Positions 41,931-62,960 of a stretch of DNA of 64,000 nt are shown here, one piece after another (within the stretch, counting starts at the first letter, position 1; each line of letters opens with the position of its first letter). The translations under genes and the position numbers were made by a program. A model generated the notes under the pieces. The model had not been told where the DNA came from, searched no databases, and saw only the letters and a list, made by a program, of their open reading frames with translations. Origin of the DNA: Actinoplanes utahensis (GTDB lineage Bacteria; Actinomycetota; Actinomycetes; Mycobacteriales; Micromonosporaceae); the NCBI RefSeq assembly GCF_016862455.1, contig NZ_BOMZ01000030.1, positions 1-64,000 of the forward strand, in the 5' to 3' direction.

Positions 41931-43843
41931 CTGCACCTGCTTCTCAGCGACGCGGGCCGGTTCCCGGTGGACCGCCCGCTGCCCGGATGATGATGGCGGG
42001 TGGGCCGCCGGAGAAACTCGAGGACTTCAAGGGGTCCACGAAACGGCTGCTCGGGCTGCTCAAGCCACAGCGGGTCTTCGTGGCCGGGGCGCTGGGGTTC
42101 GGCGCCGTCAGCGTCTTCCTGTCGGTGTACGGCCCCTACCTGCTCGGCAAGGCCACCGACGTGATCTTCGCCGGGGTGATCAGCCGGCTGCCGGACGCCG
42201 GCGCGGGCGACAAGTTCGCCGGTGTGGACGTGGTGCCCGGCCAGGGCATCGACTTCGACAGGCTGATGCGGATCCTCGGCTGGGTCGCGCTGATCTACGT
42301 GTTCGCCTGGATCTTCGGCGTCCTGCAGGGCCGGCTCACCACCCGGGCCGTCCAGGCCGCCGTCTTCGACCTGCGGCAGCAGGTGGAGGACAAACTGGGC
42401 CGGCTGCCCCTGTCGTACTTCGACAAGCAGGCCCGCGGTGAGGTGCTGAGCCGGGCCACCAACGACACCGACAACATCGCGCAGACCCTGCAGCAGACGT
42501 TCGCCCAGCTGGTCACGTCGCTGTTGATGATCGTGGGCGTACTCGGGATGATGTTCTGGATCTCGCCGTTGCTGGCGCTGATCGCGCTCGTCTCGGTGCC
42601 GGTGTCGATCTGGCTCACCACCGTGATCGGCAAGCGGTCGCAGGGCCAGTTCGTCGCCCAGTGGAAGACCACCGGGCAGCTCAACGGCCACATCGAGGAG
42701 ATGTTCACCGGGCACACCCTGGTCAAGGTCTTCGGGCGGCAGAACGAGGCGGCCGCGGTCTTCCAGGAGCACAACGACAAACTGTTCGCCTCCAGCTTCC
42801 GCGCCCAGTTCATCTCCGGGCTGATCCAGCCGGCCATGATGTTCATCAGCAACCTGAACTACGTGCTGGTGGCGGTCGTCGGTGGCCTGCGGGTGGCGTC
42901 CGGGACGCTGTCGCTCGGTGAGGTGCAGGCGTTCATCCAGTACTCGCGCCAGTTCAGCCAGCCGCTCACCCAGGTCGCCAGCATGGCCAACCTGGTCCAG
43001 TCCGGGGTGGCCTCGGCCGAGCGGGTGTTCGCCCTGCTCGACGCCGACGAACAGTCCCCCGAACCGGTTCCCGCCGAGCTCGGCGACGTGCGCGGCCGGA
43101 TCGCGTTCGAGAACGTGTCGTTCCGCTACCTGCCGGACAAGCCGCTGATCGAGAACCTCTCGCTGGCCGTCGAACCCGGTCAGACCGTGGCGATCGTCGG
43201 CCCCACCGGCGCCGGCAAGACCACGCTGGTCAACCTGCTGATGCGGTTCTACGAGGTGACCGGCGGGCGGATCACCCTGGACGGGGTCGACATCGCCACC
43301 ATGCCGCGGGAACAACTCCGCGAACAGATCGGGATGGTCCTCCAGGACACCTGGCTGTTCGGTGGCAGCATCGCCGACAACATCGGGTACGGCGCGCCCA
43401 CCGCGACCCCCTCATCGGAGTCGATCCGGGCGGCCGCCGAGGCGGCCCACGTCGACGGGTTCGTGCGGATGCTGCCCGAGGGATACGACACGAAGATCGA
43501 CGAGGAGGGGTCGAACGTCAGCACCGGCCAGAAACAGCTGGTCACGATCGCGCGGGCGTTCCTCGCCGAACCCAGCATCCTGATCCTGGACGAGGCGACC
43601 AGCTCGGTCGACACGCGTACCGAGGTGCTGATCCAGCAGGCGATGGCGACCCTGCGGAGCGGGCGCACCAGTTTCGTGATCGCCCACCGGCTGTCCACGA
43701 TCCGCGACGCCGACGTCATCCTGGTGATGGAGAACGGCACGATCGTCGAACAGGGCACCCACGACTCCCTGCTCGCGGCCGGTGGGGCGTACGCCCGCCT
43801 CTACTCCGCCCAGTTCGCCCAGGCCGTCGTCGAGGTCGACTGA
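41927..43843 (+). CDS. ABC exporter half-transporter, catalytic-site subunit
   Basis: A 638-residue partner of the preceding protein with a longer Pro/Gly-rich N terminus, six transmembrane helices and a nucleotide-binding domain. Walker A is GPTGAGKTT and Walker B is the canonical ILILDEATSSVD. The signature is altered to NVSTGQKQL instead of LSGGQ. In a heterodimer this altered signature faces the Asp-substituted Walker B of the partner, so both changes fall in the same composite ATP site and the other site is fully consensus. The start overlaps the partner's stop as ATGA. Confidence 0.93.
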   Translation: MTAPASQRRGPVPGGPPAARMMMAGGPPEKLEDFKGSTKRLLGLLKPQRVFVAGALGFGAVSVFLSVYGPYLLGKATDVIFAGVISRLPDAGAGDKFAGVDVVPGQGIDFDRLMRILGWVALIYVFAWIFGVLQGRLTTRAVQAAVFDLRQQVEDKLGRLPLSYFDKQARGEVLSRATNDTDNIAQTLQQTFAQLVTSLLMIVGVLGMMFWISPLLALIALVSVPVSIWLTTVIGKRSQGQFVAQWKTTGQLNGHIEEMFTGHTLVKVFGRQNEAAAVFQEHNDKLFASSFRAQFISGLIQPAMMFISNLNYVLVAVVGGLRVASGTLSLGEVQAFIQYSRQFSQPLTQVASMANLVQSGVASAERVFALLDADEQSPEPVPAELGDVRGRIAFENVSFRYLPDKPLIENLSLAVEPGQTVAIVGPTGAGKTTLVNLLMRFYEVTGGRITLDGVDIATMPREQLREQIGMVLQDTWLFGGSIADNIGYGAPTATPSSESIRAAAEAAHVDGFVRMLPEGYDTKIDEEGSNVSTGQKQLVTIARAFLAEPSILILDEATSSVDTRTEVLIQQAMATLRSGRTSFVIAHRLSTIRDADVILVMENGTIVEQGTHDSLLAAGGAYARLYSAQFAQAVVEVD

Positions 43844-43906: not shown

Positions 43907-46900
43907 TTACTTGATCGTCACGGACTTGCCCGCGGTGGTGGCCGCGTTGATGCCGGACGTGCCGGAGACCGTGGCCCGGACGGTGACCTTGGTCTTCGAC
44001 TTGATGCTGACGGTCTTGGTGAAGTTCGTCGCCGTCGTCGTGCCGGTGGTCAGGTTCACGTACTTGCCACCGGAGAGACGCTGGATGGTGACCTTCTGGC
44101 CGGCGGCCTTCGGGTTACCGGTGACCACGATCTTCAGCTTGCCCTTCGACGGCGAGCTGATCGACAACACCGGGTTCTGGGTCAGCTTGACCGTACGGAC
44201 CGCGGAGTACAGCTCGTTGGCTCGCACCGCGAACGCGTGGCCGGTCGTGATCGACCGCGTCACCCGGAAGTTGCCGCTGGCGTCCGACTTCACCGAGGTG
44301 AGGGACTTCAGGCTGCCCAGGGTGCTCGCCGGCAGCGGCGCGCCCCACAGCTCGACCGTGGTGTTCGGCGAGGTCTTACCGGTGATCGTGGCAGTGCCCG
44401 CGCCCCGGCTCGGACCGCTCACCGCGATGGTCGGCGTGGCCGGCTTCGGGTCACCCGGGTCGGTCGGCGTGGTCGGCGTACCACCGGCGTTCGCCTTGAT
44501 GGTGACGGTGGCGTCACCGTTGATCACCGAAGCGCCCAGCGGACCGGGAGCTCCGAGCCGCAGCGAGAAGTACTCGTCGCCTTCAGCGTGCCCGTCGTTG
44601 ATCAGCGGAACCTTGATGGTCCACTTCTTGACGTTCGCGGGAACCTCGGTGTTGCCCTTCGTGTACTTGAAGTCCTCGCCCGCCTTGGCGGTGCCGTCCG
44701 ACGTCCAGAACGGGATCGTGACCGGCTGCGAGCTGGAGTCGGCTTCACCGGTGAAGTCCAGGTTGACCGGAACCTCGGCGACGCCGGCCTTCTCGTCCAC
44801 CACGATGTCCGCGATGGAGACCGCCGGCGGCAGGTCCAGCGGGTCGTCGGCGACCTTCACGGTCGTGGACGACGTGGCGAAACCGGTGAGGATCGACGAG
44901 ATCTCGTTGGCGGTGATCGAGATGGACTCGTTCGGCTCGTCGATGGTGTCGTTCAGGATCTCGATGAGCTGCGCCGGGTAACCGTTACCGCCGGCACTCG
45001 CCGCGAACTTGCCACCACTCGCGGTGAGCAGACCCGACTCGCCCCGGCGTACCTCGATGTCGAGGGCTGCCAGGGTGTCCGGCACCTTGAAGTCCACGCC
45101 CGGGGTCGCCGGCTCTGACGCGCCGCCACCCACGGTGAGGCCGAGGTGGTAGGTGTACTCGGAGACGCCGACGACGGTGCCGGTCACCGGGAGCGTGCCA
45201 CCCTCGGTGACGGTGCCCAACTGGTAGGTGAGCTTCGGCTGGGCGTCGTCGTTGCCGACCGTCACCCGTGAGACCTTCACGGTGGTGTCCGGCGAGTCCT
45301 CCACATTGTTGGCCGAAGCCGTGGCCGTGGTCATGGCGAACGTGACGTTGAAGGTCTGGTCCTTCTCGAAGACCTCGTCGCCGTTGATCGGGACGTCGAG
45401 GTACCCGACCGTCTCGCCCGCCTTGACCGTCACGACCTTGTTGATCGGCTGGGTGTAGTCGTTGTCACCCGCACCGACGCCCGTGTCGTCGACCGCGCTC
45501 GCATCCGCGAACGTGGCGTCGAAGGCGACGTCGGCGGCTGCCGGACCGGTGAGCCGGACCGGAATCCGGGCCAGGGTCGTGCCGGTGTTGCCCTCCTGGA
45601 CCTTCGCGTCCTCGGTGGTCCAGAACGGCGCCGCGTCGTCGTCCGTGATGGTGAACTCCTGGTCGCCCAGAGAAGCCGCATCCACCACACCACTCGGGCT
45701 GGTCACCCGCAGAACGAACTTCTCGGTCGGCTCGGCCTGACGGTCCCCGATGACGGTGACCGGGATGGTCACCTCCTTCGTGGCGTCCTTCGGCACCGTG
45801 ACGGTTCCGGCCTTGCCCTCGTAGTCGCTGCCGGCCTTGGCCGTGCCGTCGACGAAGGTGTAGTTCAGCACCGCGTCAGCCGGCGAGTTCGTGTCGAACT
45901 TGACGTAGATCTTCTTCTCGACCGGACCGGTGCTGCCCTCGGCCCAGGTGTGAGCCGTATTGTCGGCGGGGCCGGTGGCGGTGCCGTAGTAGACCGTCTT
46001 GCCCGATCCGGCGTCGGTGATGGTCCCGTTCGCGTAGTCCTTGCCGAGCGATGCGGTCGGGCTGCTCGGAAGGCTGATCGTGGCCCGGACGCCTTCGGGG
46101 CCTTCGAAGTCCGGCCCGTCGTCGTACGTCGTCGTCAGCACCATCAGGTTGCTCGACGGGGCGTACGACGGAATGGTCGTAGGCGCACCTGCCGTCCAGA
46201 GGATGTCCTCCTTCGTGTCGCTGGAGGACAGGACCTTCGCCGCGGTCGTCCCGGCGATCGCCTCGCCGGCGACGGCGACCTCGACACCGACACCCTTCTC
46301 CGAAGGATTGGTGAGCGTCAGCGGGAAGGAGAGGTAGGTGCCCTCGACCGCCGGCTCGGCGTTGGCGATGCTGACTTCCGGCAGCTTGTCGTCGTCCCGG
46401 ATGCCGATCTTGACCTTGTCCTGGCCGCTGATCACGTTGCCGCCGAGGGCGGCGCTGGTCACACCACCGGCGAGGGTGATGCGGGCGGTGTCCTCGTTGA
46501 CGCTGAAGTTCTGGACGTCCGTCTCGTCGGCGTTGTCGTCCCAGAGCGTCACCGTCGTCGTTCCGGTGGTGCTGTTCGCCGGGATGGTGATGACGGCGTC
46601 GGCAGGCAGGGCCGTGTAGTCCCGGTTCGCCTCGCCTTCCGGCGTCGCCATGTCGGTCTTGAAGTCGGTGCTGCCGGTGACAGCGGCCGTCTTGACCGGC
46701 ACGATGACGTCACGGGTCTGCGGGAAGGTCTGCTTGGCGGTGATCGTCACCGTCTTCTGGACGCCGCCGGTCGCCGTCTCGTCGACAGTCGTCGCGCCGG
46801 ACAACGTGATGAGGTTGTTCGAGTCGGTCGCGAGGATCGTGCCGGTGCCGCTCTTCGTCAATCCGCCGGCGTCGGTCGCCGTCAGCGCGAGGGCCTCGGT

Positions 46901-47338
46901 CGCATCGGCGTCCTTCCTGGTGGTGACCGTCAGCGTCGCCTTGTACGACCCGCCCGCCGCCACAGCCGGGAACGAGATCTCGCGGGCGCTGACGCTGATG
47001 TAGTCGTTCGAAGCGGTCAGGTCCGCGCCACCGGTCGCGTCCGCGTCCCCACTGGCCGCGGTCAGGCCGGTGCTGAAGCTGAAGATGCCCGACGTGGAGC
47101 CGGTGTAGGTCAGGGTGAAGCTCAGCCTGCCGCCACCCCAGTTGGTGGCGTTCGAGATCGTCAGATCGTCGATGTTGCCGGTCGGTGTGGCGTGCGCGGG
47201 GGAACCCACCATGACCGCCGGGACCAGGCCGATGACTGAGGCGGCGACGGTGGCCAGGGTCGTCCGGATTCGTGTCCGTCCCCAGAGCGTGAACGGCACC
47301 CGCTCTCGCGGCGCCGCTTGGATTGGTCGATGACGCAT
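43907..47338 (-). CDS. Giant secreted Calx-beta repeat protein, 1143 aa
   Basis: A 1143-residue exported protein. The N-terminal ~55 residues form an extended signal peptide with the motif VPFTLW before the hydrophobic core (TTLATVAASVIGLVPAVMVGSPAHA). About seven or eight Calx-beta-type modules follow, recognisable by endings such as GIRDDDKLPE, FTITDDDAAPF and KVADDPLDLPP. An Ig-like C-terminal domain ends in KTKVTVRATVSGTSGINAATTAGKSVTIK. No LPxTG or other anchor is seen. Calx-beta modules bind calcium and occur in adhesins and matrix proteins. The ATG at 47338 has AGGAAGA a few nt upstream and is directly preceded by a cyclic di-GMP riboswitch, so expression probably follows the sessile/developmental second messenger. 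Confidence 0.88.
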   Translation of the reverse strand: MRHRPIQAAPRERVPFTLWGRTRIRTTLATVAASVIGLVPAVMVGSPAHATPTGNIDDLTISNATNWGGGRLSFTLTYTGSTSGIFSFSTGLTAASGDADATGGADLTASNDYISVSAREISFPAVAAGGSYKATLTVTTRKDADATEALALTATDAGGLTKSGTGTILATDSNNLITLSGATTVDETATGGVQKTVTITAKQTFPQTRDVIVPVKTAAVTGSTDFKTDMATPEGEANRDYTALPADAVITIPANSTTGTTTVTLWDDNADETDVQNFSVNEDTARITLAGGVTSAALGGNVISGQDKVKIGIRDDDKLPEVSIANAEPAVEGTYLSFPLTLTNPSEKGVGVEVAVAGEAIAGTTAAKVLSSSDTKEDILWTAGAPTTIPSYAPSSNLMVLTTTYDDGPDFEGPEGVRATISLPSSPTASLGKDYANGTITDAGSGKTVYYGTATGPADNTAHTWAEGSTGPVEKKIYVKFDTNSPADAVLNYTFVDGTAKAGSDYEGKAGTVTVPKDATKEVTIPVTVIGDRQAEPTEKFVLRVTSPSGVVDAASLGDQEFTITDDDAAPFWTTEDAKVQEGNTGTTLARIPVRLTGPAAADVAFDATFADASAVDDTGVGAGDNDYTQPINKVVTVKAGETVGYLDVPINGDEVFEKDQTFNVTFAMTTATASANNVEDSPDTTVKVSRVTVGNDDAQPKLTYQLGTVTEGGTLPVTGTVVGVSEYTYHLGLTVGGGASEPATPGVDFKVPDTLAALDIEVRRGESGLLTASGGKFAASAGGNGYPAQLIEILNDTIDEPNESISITANEISSILTGFATSSTTVKVADDPLDLPPAVSIADIVVDEKAGVAEVPVNLDFTGEADSSSQPVTIPFWTSDGTAKAGEDFKYTKGNTEVPANVKKWTIKVPLINDGHAEGDEYFSLRLGAPGPLGASVINGDATVTIKANAGGTPTTPTDPGDPKPATPTIAVSGPSRGAGTATITGKTSPNTTVELWGAPLPASTLGSLKSLTSVKSDASGNFRVTRSITTGHAFAVRANELYSAVRTVKLTQNPVLSISSPSKGKLKIVVTGNPKAAGQKVTIQRLSGGKYVNLTTGTTTATNFTKTVSIKSKTKVTVRATVSGTSGINAATTAGKSVTIK

Positions 47339-47357
47339 TCTCTTCCTGTCTCCTTCG

Positions 47358-47436
47358 GCGGCTGGGCTGCCTCCAGCGGGGAGGCCCCTGGCTTTGCGTC
47401 CCCGTCTCGCGACGGGTTTGCCTGTTCGGGTACCGC
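47358..47436 (-). ncRNA. Cyclic di-GMP-I (GEMM) riboswitch
   Basis: On the minus strand the leader carries the class I core. GGCAAACC (47422-47415) and a CCGTC/GACGG stem capped by the GNRA loop GCGA lead into GGGACGCAAAGCC (47402-47390). A second stem, GCCTCC/GGAGGC (47385-47380 with 47374-47369), ends in AGCCCAGCCGCC. The outer helix P1 is formed by GCGGT (47436-47432) with GCCGC (47362-47358). These are the conserved blocks of the GEMM family. The switch ends about 20 nt before the ATG of the 1143-aa Calx-beta gene, next to its Shine-Dalgarno, which suggests control of translation. Confidence 0.88.
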
Positions 47437-47524
47437 ACCTAGGGCGGTTCGGGGTGCCGGTTCGACCGGCCCTCAGCAGCGCAGACACCGGGTGCGAAGT
47501 TCCGCTTCAGGTGGCGCTAACTGC

Positions 47525-47530
47525 AATCTA
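47525..47530 (-). promoter_or_regulatory. -10-like TAGATT upstream of the riboswitch
   Basis: Reading the minus strand, CCGGTTAGATTGC gives a TAGATT -10. The transcript would start near 47518 and carry a 180-nt leader containing the riboswitch. The same GGTTAGATT string occurs at 59413-59406 before the largest Calx-beta gene. No convincing -35 is visible. Confidence 0.45.
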
Positions 47531-47694
47531 ACCGGCGTATCGGACCGTTCGCGGCGGAACGCGTTTTTCGGTAGAAAGACCTTCACATAGCCGGGTATCG
47601 GCCCGGTCGGGTGGCTCTGACCGGCCGCGATCAGCACCCTGACCAGCGGCGTACTGTACTCGCGGGTCGTACCCCCAGGGTTGGGGAACGGGGA

Positions 47695-47720
47695 AAGGGC
47701 GGCCCGATCGGACCGCCCTT
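47695..47720 (-). terminator. Terminator after the 1521-aa Calx-beta gene
   Basis: An 8-bp stem (AAGGGCGG at 47695-47702 with CCGCCCTT at 47713-47720) has a 10-nt loop. On the minus strand it is followed by TTTCCCC and lies 17 nt past the stop codon at 47737. It separates this gene from the riboswitch-controlled gene. Confidence 0.65.
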
Positions 47721-47736
47721 CGCACCGCCACGCCCC

Positions 47737-50700
47737 TTATTTCACTTTCACCGTCCGGGACGCCGAGGTTCCGGCGAGAATGCCGAGCGACGGCGTAGCG
47801 GTGATCACCGCCCGGAAGACCGCGGTGCCGCCGGAGGTGAGGCCGCGGACGGTGGTGGCGAACCGGCCCCTCGGGCCGAGCCGACCGTCGTCGACCTCCC
47901 GCCACTCGCCGCGGATCCGCCGCTGCACCCGCACCGTCTGGCCGCCCTCGTCCGGATCCCCGGCCACGGTGAGCGTGACCTGGCCGCGCGCGTTCGAGAC
48001 CGCGGTCAGGGACGGTTCCTGCCTGATCCGCACCACGCGCACCGGCGAGCTCAGACCGGCGGCACGGGTCTGGAACCGCACTCCGATGCCGATGGTGGGC
48101 TGGAACGTGTAGGCACCGTCGTCGTCGGCGACAGTCGTGCCGATCACCTTGAACGTGCCACCGGCGACCCCACCGGCGCTGAGCAGCTCCACCTTGGCGC
48201 CGGCCGCCGCGACACCGCTGAGCACCACCCGCCCGGAGCCGGCCTGGGTGGCAGGGGCGGTCAGGGTGGGCGCCGTCGCCTTGTCGTCGTCGGTGATGGT
48301 GACCGTGCCGGGCCCGCCGGTCACCGGCACCCCCGCGGGAGCGGCGGCGCCGAGGCGGACGGTGAAGCTCTGGGCCTTCTCGTCGCGGGTGTCGTCGATC
48401 AGCGGCACCCGGACGGTGGCGGAACCCGCGAGCGGGTCGATCGTGACGGCGCCACCCGACTTGCGATAGTCGCGGCCCGCCTCGGCCGTACCGTCCACGG
48501 TCTGCCACGGCACCGTGACGACCCGCTCGGTGGAGGCGGCGCCACCCCGGAAGTCCAGGGTGACCGGCAGCTCCGCCGCGTCGTCGTCCTCGCTGACCGC
48601 GGCATCGCCGATCGACACGGTGGGTGGCCGGTCGGCCGGGTCGTCGGTGATCCGGAATCGGATGACGCCGCCGGCGACGGTGAGTTCGGCGATCTCGTCG
48701 TCCTCGTCGATGCTGTCGTCGGCGAACCGGATGGTGCCGAGGGTGGTCGTGCTGCCGCTCGGCGTGCCGGCCGGAATGACGAGACCGTCGCCGAGGTCGT
48801 AGTCGGCGGGTTCGGCGCCGTCGTCGGCCAAGACACGTACGGCGGGCCCGCGTTCGACGACGAGCCGGCGCCTCTCCCCGCGCTTGACCCGGACGACGGG
48901 CCGGGTACGCGCCGTGGTGGCCGTCGCCTCGCCGTCACCGATCACGTAGTCCCGCTGCGGGGTGCCGGTGACCGTGCCTCTCACCTCGAGACTGCCGCCT
49001 TCGGCGACGGTGGCCGTGGTCTGCGCGAACGTGACGGTGGGTTCCGGATCGTCGTCGGTGATGGTCACCGCGGCCTGCTGCGAGGAGCCGCCCGCGGAGG
49101 ACACCGTCACCACGGCGGTCTCGTCACCCTCGTACACCTCGTCCTGCCGGATCGGCACGGTGATCAGCGCGCTCGACCGGCCCTCGGGTATCCGTACCGT
49201 GGTCGCGGGTTCGCCGTAATCCCTGGACGGGGTGGCGGTCCCGGACCCGATCGCGACGTCGAGGTCGATGTCGACGGGCGCGGGCTCGCTCAGGCTGACC
49301 TCGACGGCGGCGGAGCCGGACGCCTCCCCTGCCGTGACCGCGCCGGTCACCGCGAACGCCGGCACGGCCTTGTCGTCGTCGGTGATGACGATCCGGCCCT
49401 CGGCTTGATTGATCCCCACGCCGTCCGGGCTGGGCCCGAACACGCGCACCGTGACGCTTCCCTCAGGTTCGGCGCGCTTGTCGTCGACGATCGGCACCCG
49501 GATCACACTGTTCGTCTGGCCGGGCCCGAACTCGACGATGCCCGTCCTCGGCTCCGCCACGTCCTCGCTGCCGCCGAGCACCTCGTAGCCGGCCGAGACC
49601 CGTTGTTCGGTGCTCGTCGTATCGCCGCCGAGGAACTCCAGGGTGACGGGCACCTCGGCGAAACCCTGGTTCTCGGCGGCCGTCACCGAACCCACCGAGA
49701 CGGCGGGTGGCGAGTCCAGCGGATCGTCGCGGATCTCGTAGCGGGCTTCGGCAGGCGGGGCGGCAGGGTGCTCCAGGACGGCCTCGATGCTCTCGCTCGC
49801 CTCGTCGACGGTGTCGCCGGCCAGCTTGATCGAGTGCAGGGTGACGGGGCCGGTGCCGCCGCCGGGCACGGTGACCTTCACGTCGCCGCCGGTGAAGTCG
49901 GTCGCTTCGGCGGGGTCGGCGCCGCTCGTGTCACCGCTGAGGCGCAGCAGGTAGCCGATCGGGTCCTCGGCGATCCCGGCCGGGGTGGCGATCACGTCGA
50001 CGGTGCCGCCCTCGGTGCCGGACGCACCGGTGTTCAGGGTGAGCGCCGGCGGGGCGTCGTCGTTCTCGAGCCTCAGCTCGGCTCCCGCCGGGTCACCGAT
50101 GACGTTCGGGTCGCCGTCGCGCGGGGAGACCATGATCATCGCGGTCTCGGTGTCCTCCCAGACCGCATCGCCGTTGATGGTCACGTCGAACGTCTTGGTC
50201 TTCTCGCCCTCCTCGAAAGTCACCGACGAGGGCACGCTGTAGTCGGCGCCGGCAATCCCGCCCTCGGTCTGAACCGCGGTCTGATCCGCACCGGTGACGT
50301 CCAGAACGATCGGGCCGGGTGCGGGGTGGCTCAACTCCACGGTGAAGGGCGCCGTCTCGGTGGTGTTCCCTTCGTCCTCCACGTCGGGGTTGATGCCGTC
50401 GGGGAACTCCCGGGCGACCGAGGCGATGCTCGGGGCGCCGTCGTCGTCGACGATCCGGAACCGGTGGTCGCCGAGTCCGGTGGCCTCCACCCCGGTCAGG
50501 CCGGACAGCCGGATCGTGAAGGACTCACCGGCGCCCTCGTCCGAGGTGTCACCGTGAATCGGCACCATGAACTGCTGATAGGTGCCCGGGGGGAAGACGA
50601 GCGTGCCCGACACCGTGTCGAGGTCCACGTCGTCGGTGGTGTCGTGGAGTACCTGATAGTTCAGGCGTACCTCCTCGTCGACGTCGACGTTGAGGAGCAC

Positions 50701-52302
50701 GGCGAAGTACTGCTCGGTGACGCCGCTGTCACCCTCGGCGATCACTCCCTGCGTTCCCACGGCGATGGTCGCGTCGAGGACCGAGCCGGTGGCGGCGGGC
50801 GTCTCCGACCGGACCGCACCGCCGGCATCGGTGACTCTCAGGTCGAGGGTCTCGGGCTCGGTCTCCTGTTCGGTGTCCCGGATGGTCGGGACCTCGACGT
50901 GCTTCACCGTCTCGCCGGGGCCGAAGACGACGTCCTCGGTCACCGCGGTGTAGTCGCCGTCGGCGGTCGTGGCCGTACCGTCGGCTGTGGCGACACGCAC
51001 CGTGATGGGCTTGTCGCTGGCACCACTCAGCGTGACCGGGAACCGGAGCGTCTTACCTTCGGCGACCACCTTCGCGGCAGGTGTCCGCACCGAGACCTTC
51101 GGCGCGACCGGCGGGGCATCGCGGATCGTGACGGTCGTTTCGGCCGTGGACGTCTCCGGCCCTTCCCCGGAGTAGGTGACCTTGAATGACTCGGGGGTCT
51201 CGATCGCGGCGTCGGGCGTGGTGGGGATGGTGATCCGCCCTGAGGCCTCCCCGGCCCGGATCATCAGGTACCCGGAGGTGTCGCCGTAGTCGGCAGTGCT
51301 CGCCGAGCCGGCCTTGACGGTGTACTCGGAATAGATGTGCCTCTCGGTCGACGTCGCCGTGTTCCCGGGGATCGCCTTGAAGTCCAGATCAACCGGAATC
51401 GACGTCACCTCGCCTTCGGTGACCGAGACCTCGGCAGGGATCATCAGCTTCGGCAGCCGTTCACTCTCGGAGTCGCTGGACCCGACATAGGCGGTTCCGG
51501 TGCCCGCGATACCGCCGTCGATGACGACCTTGAGTGTCTCGTCCGCCTCGTCGATGCCGTCCACCACGAAGCCCAGCTGCGGCATGGTGATGTTCGTGTC
51601 GCCCGGCTTGATGGTGCCGCTGAGGGCCCTCTCCCCGAACCTGCCGAGGATGATGTCCTGAGGGCCGGCCGCGTCGTTGTCGGCGGCCTCGATCCCCTGC
51701 ACGGTCGCGGTCCAGGGAATCGGGTCGTCGGCGACGCCGGTCACGGTGAAGACGGGTCCCAGTGGCGCGCCCTCGGACGTATCGGCTCCGCCGTACATGT
51801 CGATGGTCGGCGGAGTGTCGTCGTCGGCGATGGCGAAGGTGTGTTCACGGTCGCCCTGGATCGTGTCGCTCAGGCCGGTGAGCGTCATCGTGAACGTCTC
51901 GTCCGCGCCCTCGTAGACCTCGTCGCCACGGATCTCCACCGGGACCTGCACCAGCGTCTGGCCGGCCTCGATCGTGACCGGTGTGGTGGGCACCGCGTCG
52001 AAGTCCTCGCCGTCGGTGGCGGTGCCGGCGGCGAAGGCGTAACCGAAGGTCAGGTCGGTTTCCAGCGGGGCGCTCAGCGTGATGTCGAAGGTCTGGGCGC
52101 CGGTGCCCGTACCACCGTCTCCCTCCTGGATCGTCCCGCCCAGCGGGGTCACCGTGAGGACCGGGTCGCCGGACCGGGCGGCCGCCGGCGACATCGGCAC
52201 GGCAACGGGCATCGCGAGGGCCATCGCCATCGACACCACCGCGTGCAGACGGCCCGGAGCCCACAGCCGGAACGGGACCTGCTCGCCGTCACGCATGGGC
52301 AT
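47737..52302 (-). CDS. Giant secreted Calx-beta repeat protein, 1521 aa
   Basis: A 1521-residue exported protein. The signal peptide contains VPFRLWAPGRLHA, then a hydrophobic core (VVSMAMALAMPVAVPMS) and AAARS. About eleven or twelve Calx-beta-like modules follow (ending in ADDDTPP, VDDDGAPS, ITDDDPEPT, ITDDPADRPP and similar). The C-terminal ~190 residues (APTLTAPATQAGSGRVVLSGVAAAGAKVELL ... GILAGTSASRTVKVK) are almost identical to those of the 2338-aa neighbour. The ATG at 52302 shares its A with the neighbour's TGA stop; ATG 52296 (MRDGEQVPF) aligns best with the neighbour's start and is the alternative. Its second half is collinear with the neighbour's second half, which indicates tandem duplication. 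It is probably calcium-binding surface or matrix material. Confidence 0.87.
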   Translation of the reverse strand: MPMRDGEQVPFRLWAPGRLHAVVSMAMALAMPVAVPMSPAAARSGDPVLTVTPLGGTIQEGDGGTGTGAQTFDITLSAPLETDLTFGYAFAAGTATDGEDFDAVPTTPVTIEAGQTLVQVPVEIRGDEVYEGADETFTMTLTGLSDTIQGDREHTFAIADDDTPPTIDMYGGADTSEGAPLGPVFTVTGVADDPIPWTATVQGIEAADNDAAGPQDIILGRFGERALSGTIKPGDTNITMPQLGFVVDGIDEADETLKVVIDGGIAGTGTAYVGSSDSESERLPKLMIPAEVSVTEGEVTSIPVDLDFKAIPGNTATSTERHIYSEYTVKAGSASTADYGDTSGYLMIRAGEASGRITIPTTPDAAIETPESFKVTYSGEGPETSTAETTVTIRDAPPVAPKVSVRTPAAKVVAEGKTLRFPVTLSGASDKPITVRVATADGTATTADGDYTAVTEDVVFGPGETVKHVEVPTIRDTEQETEPETLDLRVTDAGGAVRSETPAATGSVLDATIAVGTQGVIAEGDSGVTEQYFAVLLNVDVDEEVRLNYQVLHDTTDDVDLDTVSGTLVFPPGTYQQFMVPIHGDTSDEGAGESFTIRLSGLTGVEATGLGDHRFRIVDDDGAPSIASVAREFPDGINPDVEDEGNTTETAPFTVELSHPAPGPIVLDVTGADQTAVQTEGGIAGADYSVPSSVTFEEGEKTKTFDVTINGDAVWEDTETAMIMVSPRDGDPNVIGDPAGAELRLENDDAPPALTLNTGASGTEGGTVDVIATPAGIAEDPIGYLLRLSGDTSGADPAEATDFTGGDVKVTVPGGGTGPVTLHSIKLAGDTVDEASESIEAVLEHPAAPPAEARYEIRDDPLDSPPAVSVGSVTAAENQGFAEVPVTLEFLGGDTTSTEQRVSAGYEVLGGSEDVAEPRTGIVEFGPGQTNSVIRVPIVDDKRAEPEGSVTVRVFGPSPDGVGINQAEGRIVITDDDKAVPAFAVTGAVTAGEASGSAAVEVSLSEPAPVDIDLDVAIGSGTATPSRDYGEPATTVRIPEGRSSALITVPIRQDEVYEGDETAVVTVSSAGGSSQQAAVTITDDDPEPTVTFAQTTATVAEGGSLEVRGTVTGTPQRDYVIGDGEATATTARTRPVVRVKRGERRRLVVERGPAVRVLADDGAEPADYDLGDGLVIPAGTPSGSTTTLGTIRFADDSIDEDDEIAELTVAGGVIRFRITDDPADRPPTVSIGDAAVSEDDDAAELPVTLDFRGGAASTERVVTVPWQTVDGTAEAGRDYRKSGGAVTIDPLAGSATVRVPLIDDTRDEKAQSFTVRLGAAAPAGVPVTGGPGTVTITDDDKATAPTLTAPATQAGSGRVVLSGVAAAGAKVELLSAGGVAGGTFKVIGTTVADDDGAYTFQPTIGIGVRFQTRAAGLSSPVRVVRIRQEPSLTAVSNARGQVTLTVAGDPDEGGQTVRVQRRIRGEWREVDDGRLGPRGRFATTVRGLTSGGTAVFRAVITATPSLGILAGTSASRTVKVK
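47804..47931. repeat. Near-identical DNA tract shared with 52369-52496
   Basis: A 128-bp tract in the 3' part of the 1521-aa gene matches 52369-52496 in the 2338-aa gene with only two differences that I can count. Similarity continues more weakly on both sides. It encodes the conserved C-terminal domain. Confidence 0.85.
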
Positions 52303-55300
52303 CACTTCACCTTGACCGTGCGGGCCGCCGAGGCGCCGGCGAGGATGCCGAGCGACGGCGTCGCGGTGATCACCGCCCGGAAGACCGCGGTGCCGCCGGA
52401 GGTGAGGCCGCGGACGGTGGTGGCGAACCGGCCCCTCGGGCCGAGCCGGCCGTCGTCGACCTCCCGCCATTCGCCGCGGATCCGCCGCTGCACCCGGACG
52501 GTCTGGCCGCCCTCGTCGGGATCGCCGACGACGGTGACGGTCGCCTGGCCCCGCGCGCCGGACACGACGGTCACGACGGGTTCCTGGCGGATCTGCACGG
52601 CGCGGACCGGGGAGCTGAGGCCGGCGGCACGGGTCTGGAACCGTACTCCGATGCCGATGTTGGGTTCGAAGGAGTAGGCGCCGTCGTCGTCGGCGACGGT
52701 GGAGCCGATCACCTTGAACGTGCCACCGGAGGCGCCGCCGGCACTGAGCAGTTCGACCTTCGCCCCAGCAGCCGCCACGCCCTGGAGGATGGGCCGTCCC
52801 GCGCCGACGATGATGGCCGGGGCGGTCAGGGTCGGCGCCTTGGGTTTGTCGTCGTCGGTGATGGTGACGGTGCCCGGCCCACCCGTGACGGTCACGCCCG
52901 CCGGTGCGGGGGTGCCGAGCCGGACGGTGAACGCCTGATCCTTCTCGTCGCGGGCGTCGTCGAGCAGCGGCACCCGGATGGTGGCGGATCCGGCGAGCGG
53001 GTCGATGGTGACGGTTCCGCCGGCCCCGCGGTAGTCCTCGCCGGCGTCGGCCGTGCCGTCGACGGTCTGCCAGGGCACCGTGACGGTCCGTTCGGTGGAG
53101 GTGGCGTCGCCCCGGAAGCCCAGGGTCACCGGCACCTCGGCCGCCGTGTCGTCCTCGCCGGCGGACACGTCGCCGACCGAGACCGTCGGCGGCTGGTCCG
53201 CCGGGTCGTCGGTGATCGTGAAGGTGAGGACGCTGCCGCCGAAGGAGATCGTGGCCGTCTCGTCGTCCTCGTCGATGCCGTCGCCCCGGAACCGGATCGT
53301 GCCGAGGGAGAGCCGGCTGCCGCTGGGGGTGCCGGCCGGGATGACGAAACCGTCGCCGAGGTCGTAGTCGGCCGGTTCGGCGTCCTCCCCGGCCAGCGTC
53401 CGGACGATCGGCTTGCGCTCGACGACGAGCTTGCGCTTCTCCCCCTTCTTGATCTTGACGACGGCCTGGGTACGCACGCCGGGAGCCGCCGCGGCGGCGG
53501 TGGTCGACCCGCCGATCTCGACGTCCCGCTGCGCCGTCCCGTGCACCGTGCCGACCACCTCGAAACTGCCGCCCTCGGCGACCGTGGCGGCGGTCTCGGC
53601 GAGCGTGATCGACGGTTTCGGGTCGTCGTCGGTGATGGTGAGGGTGCTCCGCTGGGACGATCCGGCGGCGTCGAGTCCCCCGGCGGCGAGGGCGGCGGTG
53701 AGCACGGCGGTCTCGTCGCCCTCGTACACCTCGTCCGGCCGGATCGGGACGGTGATCTGCGCGCTGACCGCGCCCGCCGGGATCCGTACGGTGGCAGGCG
53801 GGTTCTCGAAGTCGGTCTCGCCCGCGGCGGCCCCGGCCGGGGTGGCGGTGCCGGGTTCCACGGCGACGTCGAGGTCCATGTCGCCGGGCGCCGGTTCGCT
53901 GAGCCGGATCTCGAAGGTGGCGGAGCCGCCCGCCTCACCGGCGGTGACGTCGCCGCTGACGGTGAACTCCGGCCGCGGCGCGTTCGCGTCGTCGTCGTCG
54001 ATGACGACCCCGGCCAGGCCGCCGCTGAGCCCGGCTCCCTCCGGCGCGGCCGAGAGCAGCCGCACGTAGAACGTCTCCGGGTTCTCGGCGCGGCGGTCGT
54101 TCACGATCGGCACCCGGATCACGCCGTTGCGCTGCCCGGCCGGGACGATCAGGGTGTTCCCGTCGTACGGCGGCTCGAAGTCGGTGGTGTCGGCGGTCTC
54201 CCCGAAGGTGTCGAAGGTGACCGAGACCGGCTGTTCGGTGCTGGTCGCGCCGTTGCCACCGAGGAAGTCGAGGGTGACCGGCACCTCGGCGAGGCCCTGC
54301 GCCTCGGAGACGGTCGCCCCGCCGATCGAGACCGCGGGCGGCAGGTCCCGCGGATCGTCGGTGATCCGGTAGCGGGCCTCGACCGGGGATCCGGGCGTGG
54401 TGACCCTCTCCAGGACGGCCTTGATCGTCTCGCCGGCCTCGTCGACGGCGTCGTTGCGGAGCGCGATCGAGTGCAGGGTCACCGGGGCGGTGCTGCCGCC
54501 GGGCACGGTGACGTCGACGGTGCCGCCGGTGAAGTCGTCGATCTCCGCCGCGTCGGCGCCGTTCGCGGCGTCGCCACCGAGCCGCAGCAGGTAGCCGATC
54601 GGGTCCTCGGCGACCCCGGACGGGGTGGCGATCACGTCGACCGTGCCGCCCTCGGCCCCGGACGCGGCATCGTTGAGGGTCAGGGTGGGCACCGGGTCGT
54701 CGTCGGTGACGGCCAGGGCGGCCGTTCGCGGGTCGCCGGCGGCGGCGGTCTCCCCCGGTGCGACGGCGACCGTGATCTCCGCGGTCTCGTTCTCCTCGTA
54801 GACGTCGTCGTCGAGGATCGGCACGCTGACCGTGCCGGTCTGCTGGCCCTTCAGGATCCGCAGGGTGCCGTTCGGCGTGGTGAAGTCGTCGCCGCCCGGC
54901 ACTCCGGCGCCGCGGCGGGCGGTGCCGTCGGCAGCGGTGACGGTGAGGTCGACGTCCTCGACGGCCGGCGCGTCGAGCCGGACGGCGAACTCGGCCGCGC
55001 CGGGCTGCCCCTCGGCCGCGGTCACGTCCGGGGTCACCGTGAAGGTGTGCGCAGGTCCCGCCTCGTCGATGGTCACGGTGGTCGAGGAACCGGCGCCGGA
55101 GGCGGCGTTGAGGGCGTTGCCGACGGTCACGGTGAAGGTCTCGCCCGCGTCCGCGACCAGGTCCGGCGGGATCGGCACGGTGATGGTCCGGGTCGTCTGG
55201 CCCGGCGGGAACGTCACCTGCCCCGGGGTGGCGTCGTAGTCGTCACCGGCGGTGGCCGAGCCCGGGGTGAAGGTGTAGTCGGCGGTGATGGTCTTCTCGG

Positions 55301-58300
55301 TCGCATCGGCCGTGGTGCCGAGGGGTTCCTCGAAGTCGAGGCCGACCGGGATCGTCACGGTCCCGTTCTCGGTGGCCGTCACCGACGCCGGGGTGTGGAT
55401 GCCGGGCGGGAGATGCGTGCTGAAGTCCTGGATGACGCCGAAACCGGTCGCGGTCTCCGAGCCCTCCAGCGTCACACCGATCTTGACGGTCTCGTCGAAC
55501 TCGTCGGCGGTGCCCTGGTCCAGGCCGATCGTGCCCAGGTCGAGGGTACGGGTCCCGGGCGCGAGGTCACCGTAGGTGATCAGGTTGGTGGCGTCGAAGT
55601 CCTCGGGCTCGGCGGGGTCGCTGGAGCCGTCGGAGCCGCCGGTCGCGGTCGCCCGCCAGACGATGGGCGCCTGTGCGTCGCCGGTGACGGTGGCCGTGAC
55701 GGCGACGCCGAGCGACCCTTCGGGCTTCGTGAAGCCGTTCACCGTGATCGTCGGCGGGTCGTCGTCGTTGACCAGGGTCAGCGTGCCGGACTGCGCTCCG
55801 CCGGCCACGTTCGGGTCGCCCTCCCGCGGGGTGACGACGATCGATGCGGTCTCGTCGCCTTCCAGGACCGTGTCGCCGTCGACCGTCACGTCGAACGTCT
55901 TCGAGGTCTCGTTCTCGCTGAACGTCACGGTCGCCGGAGTGGTGTAGTCGCCGGCGCCGACACCACCGGCGGGCTGGACCGCGGTCCCGCCGGCCCCGGT
56001 GACGTCCAGCACCGTGGTGCCGAGGGCCGGGTTGCTCAGCTTCACCGTGTACGTGGCCGTGCCCGCGCCGTCGCCCTCGGGCTGCGAGACGCTGCTGACC
56101 GAGACGATGCTCGGCGCGCCGTCGTCGTCGATCAGGGTGAAGGGGTGTTCGCCGAGACCGGACGCCTGCAGTCCGGTGAGGTTCGACAGCCTGATCTTGA
56201 AGACCTCGCCGGCGCCCTCGTCGTCGGCGTCGCCGTAGACCGGCACGATGATCTGCTGCTTCGTGGCGTTCGGCGCGAAGGTGAGCGTGCCGGACGTCGC
56301 GTCGATGTCCACGCCGCCGCTGGTGGTGGTGTCGTCGAGGATCTCGTAGTCGAGTGTCACCTCGGCGTCCACGGCGACGTTGAGGGTCACGTCGAAGAGC
56401 TGCTCGCGGCCGCCGGAGTTCCCTTCGACGATCTCACCGACCGGGGTCAGCGTGACGGCCCCGTCGACGATCTTGCCGGTGCCGGTCGCCGTGCCCGCGA
56501 CCGCGTCACCCGCGTCGGTCAGTTCCAGGGTGACGGTCTCCGGATCGCTCTCCGCCGTGCCGTCGGCCGTGGTGGCCACCTCGACGGTCGCGGTGGTGAC
56601 GCCGGGCGCGAAGGTCACCTCCTTGCCGGTCACCGCCGTGTAGTCGTCGCCGGCCACCGCCGTGCCGCCGGTCGTGCCGACCCGTACGCTGACCGGCGCG
56701 TCGCTCGGTGCTCCGAGGGTCACCGGGAACTTCAGAACACCGCCCTCCGGTACGGCCACCGCGTCGCCGAGATTCACCGTCGGCGCCGCGACGTCGTCGT
56801 CGGCGATGACGAAGGGGTGCTCGCGGTCACCGAGGACGGTGTCGCTCAGACTGGTGAGAACGATGGTGAACGTCTCGTCCGGGTCCTCGTGGACGTCGTC
56901 ACCACGGATCTTCACGGCGATCCGCGCCGACGTCTGCCCCGCCGCGATCGTGACCGGCATGGCGGACACCTCGTCGATGTCCTCATCGGCGGTGGCGGTG
57001 CCCGCGACGACCCTGTACTCGAAGTTCAGGTCGGCGCCGAGCGGCTTGTTCAGGGTGAGGTCGAAGTACTCGGTCGAGACGTCCGGTGAGTCGCCCTCGC
57101 CGACGGCGCCGTCCGAGGTCACGGTGAGCACCGGATCGAGGATCCGGCCCTCGGAGCGCTCGTTGCCCAGAGACACGCCCCCCGGGTCGAGGATCTTCAG
57201 GTGGACCGTCTCGCCCTCGCCCTCCGTCAGCGAGTCCGCCTGCGTCGCCACCTTCACGACAGCGGTCGACTCTCCCGCCGCGAAGTCCACCTGCCGCACG
57301 ATCGCCTCGTAGTCGGGGCCGGCGTTGGCGGTGGCGTCCGAGGTGGCGACCGTGACCGTGACCGGGTCCGGCGCCGGTTCGGAGAGGGTGACCGGGAACT
57401 CGAGCTCGTCGCTCTCGGCGACGGGTGCCGCGTCCCCGACGCTCACGGTGGGGATGGACTCGGCGATCGTCACGGTGGCCGTGTCGTCGCCGATCGTGGC
57501 GTTCACCGGGTTCGACAGGGTGACGGTGAAGTTCTCGCTGCCTTCCTCGTCCTGGTCGGCGGCCGTCGGCACCATCGCCCAGAAGACGTCGTCGGTCGGG
57601 AGGGTTCCGCTGGTCGCCGTGAAGTCGGTGCCCTGCTCGGCCGTACCCGAAGAGGTCCGGAAGTCGACCTTGACCTCTCTCTCGGAGGTGGTGGCGGTGT
57701 TGCCGTCGTGGTTGAAGTGCCACACCGGTGACACCTTGGCCGTCCCGCCCTCCAGCACCCTGGCGTCCATCGCCCTGAGCTCGGGCGGCAGATGGTTCGG
57801 GTCGTCGTGGATGACGCCGAACTCGCTGACCTCGTCGACGCCCGCCGCCTTGACCGAGAACTTGACGTGTTCGTCGTATTCGTCGGCGCTGCCGAGCGGC
57901 ACGTCCAGAGAGCCGAGATCGATCTTGGTGGCGTCGGACGGAAGGCCTCCGGCGAGTTCCAGTCCGGTCTTGTCGATGTCGTCGCCGAAGATCGGATAGC
58001 GCTCGTCGGTCAGGTCGGGACCGACCTCGGCGGTCCAGGGCAGGGGCCCCTCGAAGGCGCCGGAGACACTGAACGAGACGGGGACGTCCTCGGCGCCCTC
58101 GTTCGCCTCGAACCCGTCGAAGGTGATCACCGGCTGGGGATCGTCGTCGACGACGGTGATCGTCACGGACTCGCTCGCATCGGCGATGTGGGGCTCCTGC
58201 CCGCCCGACATGACGAGCTTGATCTCCTCCGTCCGCTCGAAGACCTCGTCGTCCTTGATCATCACGTCGATGGTGCCGGTGTCCGAGCCGGCCGGGATGG

Positions 58301-59318
58301 TGAGCGAGCCGGCGACCTCGAAGTCGTCCTGGCCGAGCGGGACCTGGCCGTCCTCGAAGAGCACGGCGGCCTTGGCGGTGCCGCCGGCGACGTCGTCCAC
58401 CGTCACGACGCCGTCGTACGCGAGCCTGCCGGTCAGTTTGACCGTGACGGTCACCGTCTCGTCGTCGTCCTCGGTCACCGGCCCGCCGACGGTCACCGAC
58501 TCGATCTCCGGGAGGGGCTCGTCCTCCGGGAACGGGAAGGACGTCGTGCCCAGACCCCTGATCCCGATGCCGTCGCCGGTGAAGTGGGCGAGAGTGACGT
58601 CGATCTTCCGGTCCGCCCTCTCGTAAAGGTCGTCGCCGGCGATGTCGATGGTGACGCGCTTCGTCGTCACCCCCGCCGGGAACGCCAGCAACGTCTCGTC
58701 GGCGCCGCCGCTGGTGGAACTGTGGGCTGCGATCGCGTAGGTGACCGACGTGTCGCGCTGGAAGGCGACGTTGAGGTTGATGTCGAAGGACTCCGTGGTG
58801 GGCCCGTCGGTCTCGGTGATCTCGTCGACCGGCTCCACCGAGATCACCGCGTCGATGATCTTCCCGGTCGCGGTGTCCGGGCCCGGCGTCGCGGCGCCGA
58901 AGTCGACGATCTTCAGCTCGACCGTCTCGGCCGTGTCCGCGTCGGTGCCCTCGTCCTCGTTGTCGGGACGGGTGGACACCTCGACGTACTGGGTGAGCTC
59001 GCCGTCCGGCTCGAACGTCAGTGGCTGGTTGTACAACGCGTTGATGTCGCCGGCCGCGGCCGATCCGGCATCCGTCGTGGACAACAGGAGCGTCAGCGAC
59101 GCGTCGGGCGCCTCGGCGAGGGTCACCGGGAAGCGGAGCGCCTCCCCCTCGGCGGCCGGCACGGGTGTGCCGATGCTCGCCGTCGGAGACGGCGCCGCGG
59201 GTACGGCGTACGCGACCCCCGGCGTGAGACCGACCGCCGCGACCACCGCGAGCGACACGAAGGCGTGGAGCCGGCCTGGCGCCCACAGCCGGAACGGAAC
59301 TTCCTGATCAACGCGCAT
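52302..59318 (-). CDS. Giant secreted Calx-beta repeat protein, 2338 aa
   Basis: A 2338-residue exported protein, the largest in the window. MRVDQEVPFRLWAPGRLHAF precedes the hydrophobic core VSLAVVAAVGLTPGVAYA of the signal peptide. About seventeen Calx-beta-like modules follow, with recurring endings such as VVDDDPQP, VIADDDVAA, LIDDDGAPS, VNDDDPPT, VTDDDPVPT, ITDDDPKPS and ITDDDKPKAP. The shared C-terminal Ig-like domain ends in ASAARTVKVK. It is Asp/Glu-rich and very low in Cys, as expected for a calcium-binding extracellular rod. A GGAGGAG element lies 8 nt before the ATG at 59318. The next gene starts at its stop codon, so the two are one transcription unit. It lacks a catalytic domain or recognisable wall anchor; an adhesin or biofilm scaffold role is inferred. 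Confidence 0.88.
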   Translation of the reverse strand: MRVDQEVPFRLWAPGRLHAFVSLAVVAAVGLTPGVAYAVPAAPSPTASIGTPVPAAEGEALRFPVTLAEAPDASLTLLLSTTDAGSAAAGDINALYNQPLTFEPDGELTQYVEVSTRPDNEDEGTDADTAETVELKIVDFGAATPGPDTATGKIIDAVISVEPVDEITETDGPTTESFDINLNVAFQRDTSVTYAIAAHSSTSGGADETLLAFPAGVTTKRVTIDIAGDDLYERADRKIDVTLAHFTGDGIGIRGLGTTSFPFPEDEPLPEIESVTVGGPVTEDDDETVTVTVKLTGRLAYDGVVTVDDVAGGTAKAAVLFEDGQVPLGQDDFEVAGSLTIPAGSDTGTIDVMIKDDEVFERTEEIKLVMSGGQEPHIADASESVTITVVDDDPQPVITFDGFEANEGAEDVPVSFSVSGAFEGPLPWTAEVGPDLTDERYPIFGDDIDKTGLELAGGLPSDATKIDLGSLDVPLGSADEYDEHVKFSVKAAGVDEVSEFGVIHDDPNHLPPELRAMDARVLEGGTAKVSPVWHFNHDGNTATTSEREVKVDFRTSSGTAEQGTDFTATSGTLPTDDVFWAMVPTAADQDEEGSENFTVTLSNPVNATIGDDTATVTIAESIPTVSVGDAAPVAESDELEFPVTLSEPAPDPVTVTVATSDATANAGPDYEAIVRQVDFAAGESTAVVKVATQADSLTEGEGETVHLKILDPGGVSLGNERSEGRILDPVLTVTSDGAVGEGDSPDVSTEYFDLTLNKPLGADLNFEYRVVAGTATADEDIDEVSAMPVTIAAGQTSARIAVKIRGDDVHEDPDETFTIVLTSLSDTVLGDREHPFVIADDDVAAPTVNLGDAVAVPEGGVLKFPVTLGAPSDAPVSVRVGTTGGTAVAGDDYTAVTGKEVTFAPGVTTATVEVATTADGTAESDPETVTLELTDAGDAVAGTATGTGKIVDGAVTLTPVGEIVEGNSGGREQLFDVTLNVAVDAEVTLDYEILDDTTTSGGVDIDATSGTLTFAPNATKQQIIVPVYGDADDEGAGEVFKIRLSNLTGLQASGLGEHPFTLIDDDGAPSIVSVSSVSQPEGDGAGTATYTVKLSNPALGTTVLDVTGAGGTAVQPAGGVGAGDYTTPATVTFSENETSKTFDVTVDGDTVLEGDETASIVVTPREGDPNVAGGAQSGTLTLVNDDDPPTITVNGFTKPEGSLGVAVTATVTGDAQAPIVWRATATGGSDGSSDPAEPEDFDATNLITYGDLAPGTRTLDLGTIGLDQGTADEFDETVKIGVTLEGSETATGFGVIQDFSTHLPPGIHTPASVTATENGTVTIPVGLDFEEPLGTTADATEKTITADYTFTPGSATAGDDYDATPGQVTFPPGQTTRTITVPIPPDLVADAGETFTVTVGNALNAASGAGSSTTVTIDEAGPAHTFTVTPDVTAAEGQPGAAEFAVRLDAPAVEDVDLTVTAADGTARRGAGVPGGDDFTTPNGTLRILKGQQTGTVSVPILDDDVYEENETAEITVAVAPGETAAAGDPRTAALAVTDDDPVPTLTLNDAASGAEGGTVDVIATPSGVAEDPIGYLLRLGGDAANGADAAEIDDFTGGTVDVTVPGGSTAPVTLHSIALRNDAVDEAGETIKAVLERVTTPGSPVEARYRITDDPRDLPPAVSIGGATVSEAQGLAEVPVTLDFLGGNGATSTEQPVSVTFDTFGETADTTDFEPPYDGNTLIVPAGQRNGVIRVPIVNDRRAENPETFYVRLLSAAPEGAGLSGGLAGVVIDDDDANAPRPEFTVSGDVTAGEAGGSATFEIRLSEPAPGDMDLDVAVEPGTATPAGAAAGETDFENPPATVRIPAGAVSAQITVPIRPDEVYEGDETAVLTAALAAGGLDAAGSSQRSTLTITDDDPKPSITLAETAATVAEGGSFEVVGTVHGTAQRDVEIGGSTTAAAAAPGVRTQAVVKIKKGEKRKLVVERKPIVRTLAGEDAEPADYDLGDGFVIPAGTPSGSRLSLGTIRFRGDGIDEDDETATISFGGSVLTFTITDDPADQPPTVSVGDVSAGEDDTAAEVPVTLGFRGDATSTERTVTVPWQTVDGTADAGEDYRGAGGTVTIDPLAGSATIRVPLLDDARDEKDQAFTVRLGTPAPAGVTVTGGPGTVTITDDDKPKAPTLTAPAIIVGAGRPILQGVAAAGAKVELLSAGGASGGTFKVIGSTVADDDGAYSFEPNIGIGVRFQTRAAGLSSPVRAVQIRQEPVVTVVSGARGQATVTVVGDPDEGGQTVRVQRRIRGEWREVDDGRLGPRGRFATTVRGLTSGGTAVFRAVITATPSLGILAGASAARTVKVK
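52369..52496. repeat. Near-identical DNA tract shared with 47804-47931
   Basis: The partner of the 47804-47931 tract (about 98% identity over 128 bp, offset exactly 4565 bp), at the matching place in the C-terminal domain. Identity far above the rest of the two genes suggests recent gene conversion or duplication. Confidence 0.85.
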
Positions 59319-59405
59319 GGTGACGACTCCTCCGGCGAAACGCCAGCGGTGGGAGGGGTACCGGCGCGCATCGGCCGTTACTACGGATGGGCGCACCGCA
59401 CCCGT

Positions 59406-59411
59406 AATCTA
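59406..59411 (-). promoter_or_regulatory. -10-like TAGATT before the 2338-aa Calx-beta gene
   Basis: On the minus strand GCGGTTAGATTACGG resembles the element ahead of the riboswitch (CCGGTTAGATTGC). Transcription would start near 59399, giving an 80-nt leader that does not contain the riboswitch core. Confidence 0.4.
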
Positions 59412-59447
59412 ACCGCCTGAAAAGTCGTTATTGAGAGGAATTCGGCT

Positions 59448-62822: not shown

Positions 62823-62960
62823 GCCTCTGATCGTGCCGTCCTCCGAGGTGGAGAGGGACGACCGCGCGACTGTCACCGGTTGTCCACCGATCGGTGGACC
62901 CGAGCCCGGCGGGTGTCTTCCGGGCGGCGGCCGGACCGCACCCGCCGGTCCGGCGCCGGG

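Follow-up and report, generated by a model that had tools for sequence, protein, structure and literature searches.

The third of three consecutive genes for secreted Calx-beta proteins in Actinoplanes utahensis is, with a probability of roughly 0.7, the centre of a unit common to the genus Actinoplanes which, as read from its sequence, would consist of a promoter of its own, a leader with a cyclic di-GMP (c-di-GMP) aptamer and translational control of the gene. Transcription from the dedicated promoter, beginning at the predicted start site, would give gene 3 a leader of some 180 nt that folds into a class I c-di-GMP aptamer with its 3' strand entering the Shine-Dalgarno sequence. Binding of c-di-GMP, the presumed ligand, would then set the translation level of a secreted, adhesin-like protein built of Calx-beta and Ig domains, control at translation being the most likely mode since the aptamer runs into the ribosome-binding site. 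The two larger Calx-beta genes upstream, apparently translationally coupled, are preceded by a copy of the promoter core and have no riboswitch.

In the window, i.e. the whole stretch of 64,000 nucleotides that was analysed, the three genes are consecutive ORFs on the minus strand. Gene 1 (52302..59318, ATG start at 59318) encodes 2338 amino acids, gene 2 (47737..52302, ATG start at 52302) 1521, and gene 3 behind the riboswitch (43907..47338, ATG start at 47338) 1143. The Pfam profile PF03160 recognised them with E-values of 1.3e-103, 5.4e-63 and 5.1e-31, respectively, and all 19 Calx-beta matches of the genome (9.4 Mb in 161 contigs; 17 matches over the cut-off) lie inside these genes. The stop of gene 1 overlaps the start of gene 2 in the sequence TGATG, so that both genes probably form a single coupled unit. 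Gene 2 is followed by a 12-bp hairpin (47694..47721, minus strand), a possible terminator between two transcription units; a 41-nt fragment containing it was calculated to fold with -25.6 kcal/mol (z -3.0). The hairpin is absent from the list of a consensus scan, and its role as a terminator can only be presumed, since it is not followed by a U-run.

The Calx-beta proteins carry Sec-type signal sequences, as recognised by eye, and no T1SS family was found among the profile matches listed. T1SS adhesins of the LapA type are characterised by an N-terminal retention module and a C-terminal secretion signal; gene 1 matched the LapA domain profile with 50.7 bits, against a cut-off of 27, and gene 2 with 22.7 bits. 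A VPFxLW motif precedes the hydrophobic stretch of the signal peptide in the products of all three genes, with VPFxLR in many orthologues; a narrow DNA pattern for the VPF motif matched gene 3 alone. The last 200 residues of gene 3 (43910..44509, minus strand) share 29–30% identity with the ends of genes 2 and 1, and their structure model (pLDDT 89) is all-beta and most similar to tandem Ig-like domains. Comparison of this model with the PDB by Foldseek returned many Ig/FN3 proteins, including SiiE and another large adhesin. No C-terminal LPXTG-type motif was found in gene 3, the sole LPVTG being internal (residue 766 of the 1193-aa ORF), and no segment of transmembrane hydrophobicity occurs at its C-terminus; the product does not have the features of a sortase-anchored protein. 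An adhesin-like role of the Calx-beta proteins, at the surface or in a matrix, is plausible. The nearest named full-length protein, from A. octamycinicus, is 56% identical. Among 47 distinct complete ORFs of the riboswitch gene in the genus, most begin with MR and the N-termini are similar, having a motif like SVPFxLxG, with variants, ahead of the signal sequence; the C-termini are alike in 46 of them, the exception (L042/L099) ending in a different frame.

A cmscan search of the whole window gave a single RNA above the gathering score, situated at 47353..47431 on the minus strand, ahead of gene 3 and of no other gene in the array. The best model was RF03167 (c-di-GMP-I-GGC; 60.3 bits, E 1e-11, gathering cut-off 59), and RF01051 (c-di-GMP-I; gathering cut-off 35) reached 59.0 bits at the same site, i.e. 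1.3 bits less. The aptamer shares 3 nt at its 3' end with the ribosome-binding site AAGGAG (47350..47355, minus strand). Both the row of three secreted Calx-beta proteins and the riboswitch core directly ahead of the third ribosome-binding site only, as put forward in the original prediction, have thus been borne out by the ORF starts, PF03160 and a covariance-model hit above the cut-off; the label "class I" stands in so far as RF01051 is above its cut-off, while the top Rfam model is the GGC variant. The whole genome contains two such RNAs, and none was found in 14 control genomes. With 71 GGDEF matches, the genome is rich in enzymes of c-di-GMP metabolism.

The positions of the contact bases, with the Vc2 numbering placed on the window RNA by alignment and recall, are presumably 47422 for G20, 47395 for A47 and 47358 for C92. 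The RF03167 consensus and the window RNA have the 3' sequence GCCGAAG in common and differ at the presumed A47 position, which is G in the former and A in the latter. The name "GGC" presumably refers to this G, and, judged by its bases, the window RNA does not belong to c-di-GMP-I-GGC on that count. G20, A47 and C92 are the contact residues of the class I aptamer (PMC4744006), and A47 is described as a base that class I conserves and that binding requires (PMC9049102). Having A at position 47, the window RNA would be of the canonical type by the contact-base test, and its G/A/C set makes c-di-GMP the likely ligand. Helix P2 reads CCCGUC-GCGA-GACGGG. A P2 helix closed by a GNRA tetraloop is a feature of class I, and both this element and P3 are present in the window RNA. 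Compared with shuffled sequences, the aptamer alone did not fold better (z -0.64).

The RNA is widespread in the genus. A search of 100 genomes with stricter filters found RF03167 matches in 61, the genome of A. utahensis included, with 55 of 60 in the genus and 6 of 40 in other families of the order. The Calx-beta locus was read in 57 of the 60 genus genomes (G008 and G018, with no Calx-beta match, and G024, with one, were left out), and the RNA precedes the Calx-beta gene at 54 of these 57 loci, 52 being recognised by a sequence pattern and two (L045, L066) by cmscan. In genome G020 (L127, G020:C56) the aptamer is degenerate, and in G046 (L128, G046:C51) a deletion has removed the ligand strand together with the 3' portion of P2; promoter, gene and ribosome-binding site, the latter again AAGGAG, are kept in both. 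The Calx-beta gene of G005 has neither a leader of the riboswitch type nor the promoter or the N-terminal motif. From the aptamer to the start codon, the 52 distinct genus leaders hardly differ in sequence, parts of this region, including the ribosome-binding site, having been fixed by the pattern that collected them.

A total of 55 aptamers, that of G020 included, were parsed; the two loci unmatched by the pattern were the partly deleted one and the one without such a leader. Four of the 55 carry G at position 47, the other 51 carry A. In 45 aptamers P2 has 6 bp and a GNRA loop, its stem occurring in seven distinct versions; each position is paired in 42 to 45 of the 45, and at two positions both strands have changed. 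Of the ten others, nine have GCAACC instead of GCAAACC and the tenth is that of G020. The apical P3 pairing CCUC/GAGG occurs in all 55, both strands of the P3 core being fixed by the pattern. A consensus structure of the whole leader alignment (RNAalifold) was fragmentary, probably because of poor alignment of the 5' half of the leader, and was discarded. A pattern derived from the aptamer retrieved 30 records, i.e. 24 from Actinoplanes sensu lato (here including Paractinoplanes, Winogradskya and Symbioplanes), five from Chloroflexota MAGs and one from an "Actinobacteria bacterium". With the gene 3 protein as query for related loci, none of 31 candidate stretches was confirmed.

These data also bear on two other readings of the RNA. 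It might be a true c-di-GMP-I-GGC variant sensing another cyclic dinucleotide or a related signal instead of c-di-GMP, as RF03167 gives the top score, albeit just above its cut-off, G occupies position 47 in four of the 55 aptamers as in the GGC consensus, and a sister leader of the same genus has G, A or C at position 20. Such a variant is unlikely, however, in view of the A at position 47 and the canonical G20 and C92 of the window RNA, the RF01051 score of 59.0 bits against a cut-off of 35, and the G found at position 20 in all 55 parsed aptamers, a base that the pattern itself required. The leader might alternatively have lost its switching and survive as a structural element or a decaying relic, retained because it stabilises the mRNA or provides promoter context. 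The degenerate and partly deleted aptamers of G020 and G046, next to a persisting promoter, ribosome-binding site and gene, fit this idea, and so does the weak and mixed switching obtained by computation; the retention of the aptamer at 54 of 57 loci, the predominance of A47 and the P2 helix that stays paired despite two-sided changes nevertheless make a relic very improbable. The reading as a canonical c-di-GMP aptamer in control of gene 3 is preferred.

As to direction, expression being ON at high c-di-GMP is slightly favoured, because in the window leader the ligand strand, GACGCA, is complementary to the start region, UGCGUC; the two can pair in the unbound state, and the ligand would release the start region on binding. 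For the start codon of this leader, the predicted unpaired probability is 0.60 in the free state and rises to 0.89 once the ligand strand is blocked. The pairing of GACGCA with UGCGUC is not conserved throughout the genus, however, and other folds point the opposite way. In a longer fragment of the window with P1 forced, the unpaired probabilities of U and G of the start codon increase from 0.25 and 0.11 to 0.93 and 0.96, whereas those of the two G in the ribosome-binding site fall from 0.42 and 0.47 to 0.09 and 0.07, and the pairing of this GG would suggest OFF. The mean accessibility of the ribosome-binding site over 52 leaders was 0.55 in the free state versus 0.54 with the ligand strand blocked. 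An alternative pairing of an upstream GCGGY with GCCGC was seen in two of the three single folds shown. A conserved switch sequestering the start codon was discarded as a candidate, since no more than 6 of 52 leaders, that of the window among them, are predicted to form it. Among known riboswitches of the class, Vc1-gbpA is described as an ON case (PMC4744006).

Gene 1 and gene 3 are preceded by the same promoter core, found by pattern match as GGTTAGATTACGG ahead of gene 1 (59402..59414, minus strand) and as GGTTAGATTGCAG ahead of the riboswitch leader (47521..47533, minus strand). The 13-bp core GGTTAGATTRCRG has exactly two copies in the genome, those ahead of the two genes, and the distance from TTCC to GGTTAG, counted by hand, is 26 bp at both. 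The leaders of the genus share an element whose conserved end is GGTTAGATTACGG or a sequence close to it; a relaxed core pattern matched 54 of the 57 genus loci, with one-base variants in two more (L045 and L131). Over the 60 genus genomes, GGTTAGATTRCRG gave 39 matches in 36 genomes and a reversed control pattern one. Of these 39, four lie elsewhere and 35 at Calx-beta genes, namely 32 ahead of riboswitch genes, one ahead of gene 1 of the window and two ahead of the genes with a broken aptamer in G020 and G046. In a consensus scan of 47300–47900 no sigma-70-like site was found, and the one site resembling a terminator is at chance level and lies on the opposite strand.

Given the occurrence of so rare a core at both places, genes 1 and 2 probably share the promoter type of gene 3, and their being constitutive, as had been proposed originally for this pair, is unlikely. 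They are probably co-regulated with gene 3 at transcription and lack the RNA layer only; with the core and no riboswitch ahead of genes 1 and 2, transcription would be shared and the c-di-GMP layer confined to gene 3. No copy of the core was found ahead of the giant genes in seven other arrays, nor in L133, the L039 stretch stopping short of the first gene, so that the shared promoter has been seen in the window species only. By eye, the leader of gene 1 resembled what a deletion might have left of the riboswitch leader, but this origin was dismissed, as 88 of 500 dinucleotide shuffles aligned equally well.

The view of the array as a conserved arrangement did not hold. Extra upstream Calx-beta genes occur at 9 of the 57 loci (L035, L038, L039, L044, L054, L059, L062, L133 and the window), a lower bound because several stretches end at contig ends, and the riboswitch gene is the last one in each of the nine arrays. 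It follows that the gene with the switch is the conserved unit; the giant upstream genes are lineage expansions and the row of three is not a conserved unit. The largest expansion seen, in G029 (G029:C1:11199481-11228973), comprises four consecutive Calx-beta frames of 2682, 3178, 3164 and 1193 aa, measured from stop to stop, with 45 domain matches. Around the array of A. utahensis, a response regulator with a LuxR-type domain (59448..60065), a sensor histidine kinase (60062..61264) and an ABC transporter (61986..63716; ATPase 61986–62876, permease 62961–63716) are encoded upstream of gene 1 on the minus strand; the response regulator is one candidate for the factor that acts on GGTTAGATTRCRG. 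A further ABC transporter gene with membrane and ATPase domains (41927..43843, plus strand) is convergent and lies after gene 3; in many loci of the genus, too, the riboswitch gene is followed by a convergent ORF, which is often truncated where the stretch ends.

The second class I-type aptamer of the genome (L077, G000:C15:158147-158221, minus strand) precedes a 150-aa secreted protein without a family match and then a 1071-aa protein. The N-terminus of the latter is similar to signal peptidase I of the archaeal type, its 47.8 bits staying under the cut-off of 51.85, and matches the SipW model weakly (E 0.005); the protein also has a sub-threshold match to DUF5305. The gene adjoining this switch appears by eye to be thiC. 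In 13 leaders of the second type caught by the pattern, one of them (L087) from outside the genus, base 20 is G in seven, A in four and C in two. Seven of 11 RNA hits outside the genus were read; three are ahead of type IV pilins by eye (L079, L081, L082), the others ahead of secreted-looking proteins. In Chloroflexota MAGs (L100, L108, L109, L120) a hydrophobic peptide of 32–33 residues follows the RNA in four of five cases, the fifth being cut by a contig end. The common theme of the genes behind the RNA is exported or surface proteins.

Actinoplanes possess WhiG and lack the RsiG switch (PMC8325347), which makes the mode of c-di-GMP action there less clear and leaves room for other c-di-GMP outputs. 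One such output could be developmental, the RNA acting as proposed and the proteins belonging to the sporangium or spore envelope rather than to vegetative adhesion or a matrix. The sporangia of A. missouriensis have both a matrix and an envelope (PMC12691653, PMC13293333), and the presence of WhiG without RsiG accords with this role, which is nonetheless less likely than not; the main text of the A. missouriensis papers searched contains no mention of Calx or a riboswitch. A broader and rather unlikely proposal is that Actinoplanes, lacking RsiG, direct c-di-GMP to surface building via two class I-type leaders, one at the Calx-beta locus with G20 kept and a private promoter, the other ahead of the small secreted and signal-peptidase-I-like proteins with base 20 variable, related species reading different cyclic dinucleotides. 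In the preferred reading, with an adhesin-like product under c-di-GMP control, the riboswitch–Calx-beta unit is a concrete candidate target of c-di-GMP in Actinoplanes. G020 and G046 offer natural broken-switch species for comparison, and the rare promoter element predicts co-regulation of the upstream genes with gene 3.

Both the riboswitch class and the protein type are known, and their combination as switch and target was not found described in print. The literature searched, which mostly did not cover subscription papers, yielded no description of Calx-beta proteins in Actinoplanes and a joint mention of a c-di-GMP riboswitch with Calx-beta for Vibrio only. In Clostridioides difficile, c-di-GMP riboswitches lie directly ahead of adhesin and pilin genes, as at gene 3, but the aptamers there belong mostly to class II and come with terminators, and the proteins are mostly sortase substrates. 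The Calx-beta/cadherin adhesin FrhA of Vibrio cholerae is, like the proteins of the array, a giant surface protein, tied to c-di-GMP; unlike them, it is released by LapG-type proteolysis, and the riboswitch named in the description of its circuit acts on the regulator TfoY and not on the frhA leader (PMC6890996). The closest known counterparts of the window RNA are Vc1-gbpA and Vc2 of V. cholerae (RF01051), which have the same three-helix aptamer with G20, A47 and C92, and Vc1-gbpA is also the leader of a secreted adhesion-type protein, as at gene 3 (PMC4744006). In contrast to both, the window RNA is actinobacterial and GC-rich, has its 3' end inside the ribosome-binding site and precedes a giant Calx-beta target.
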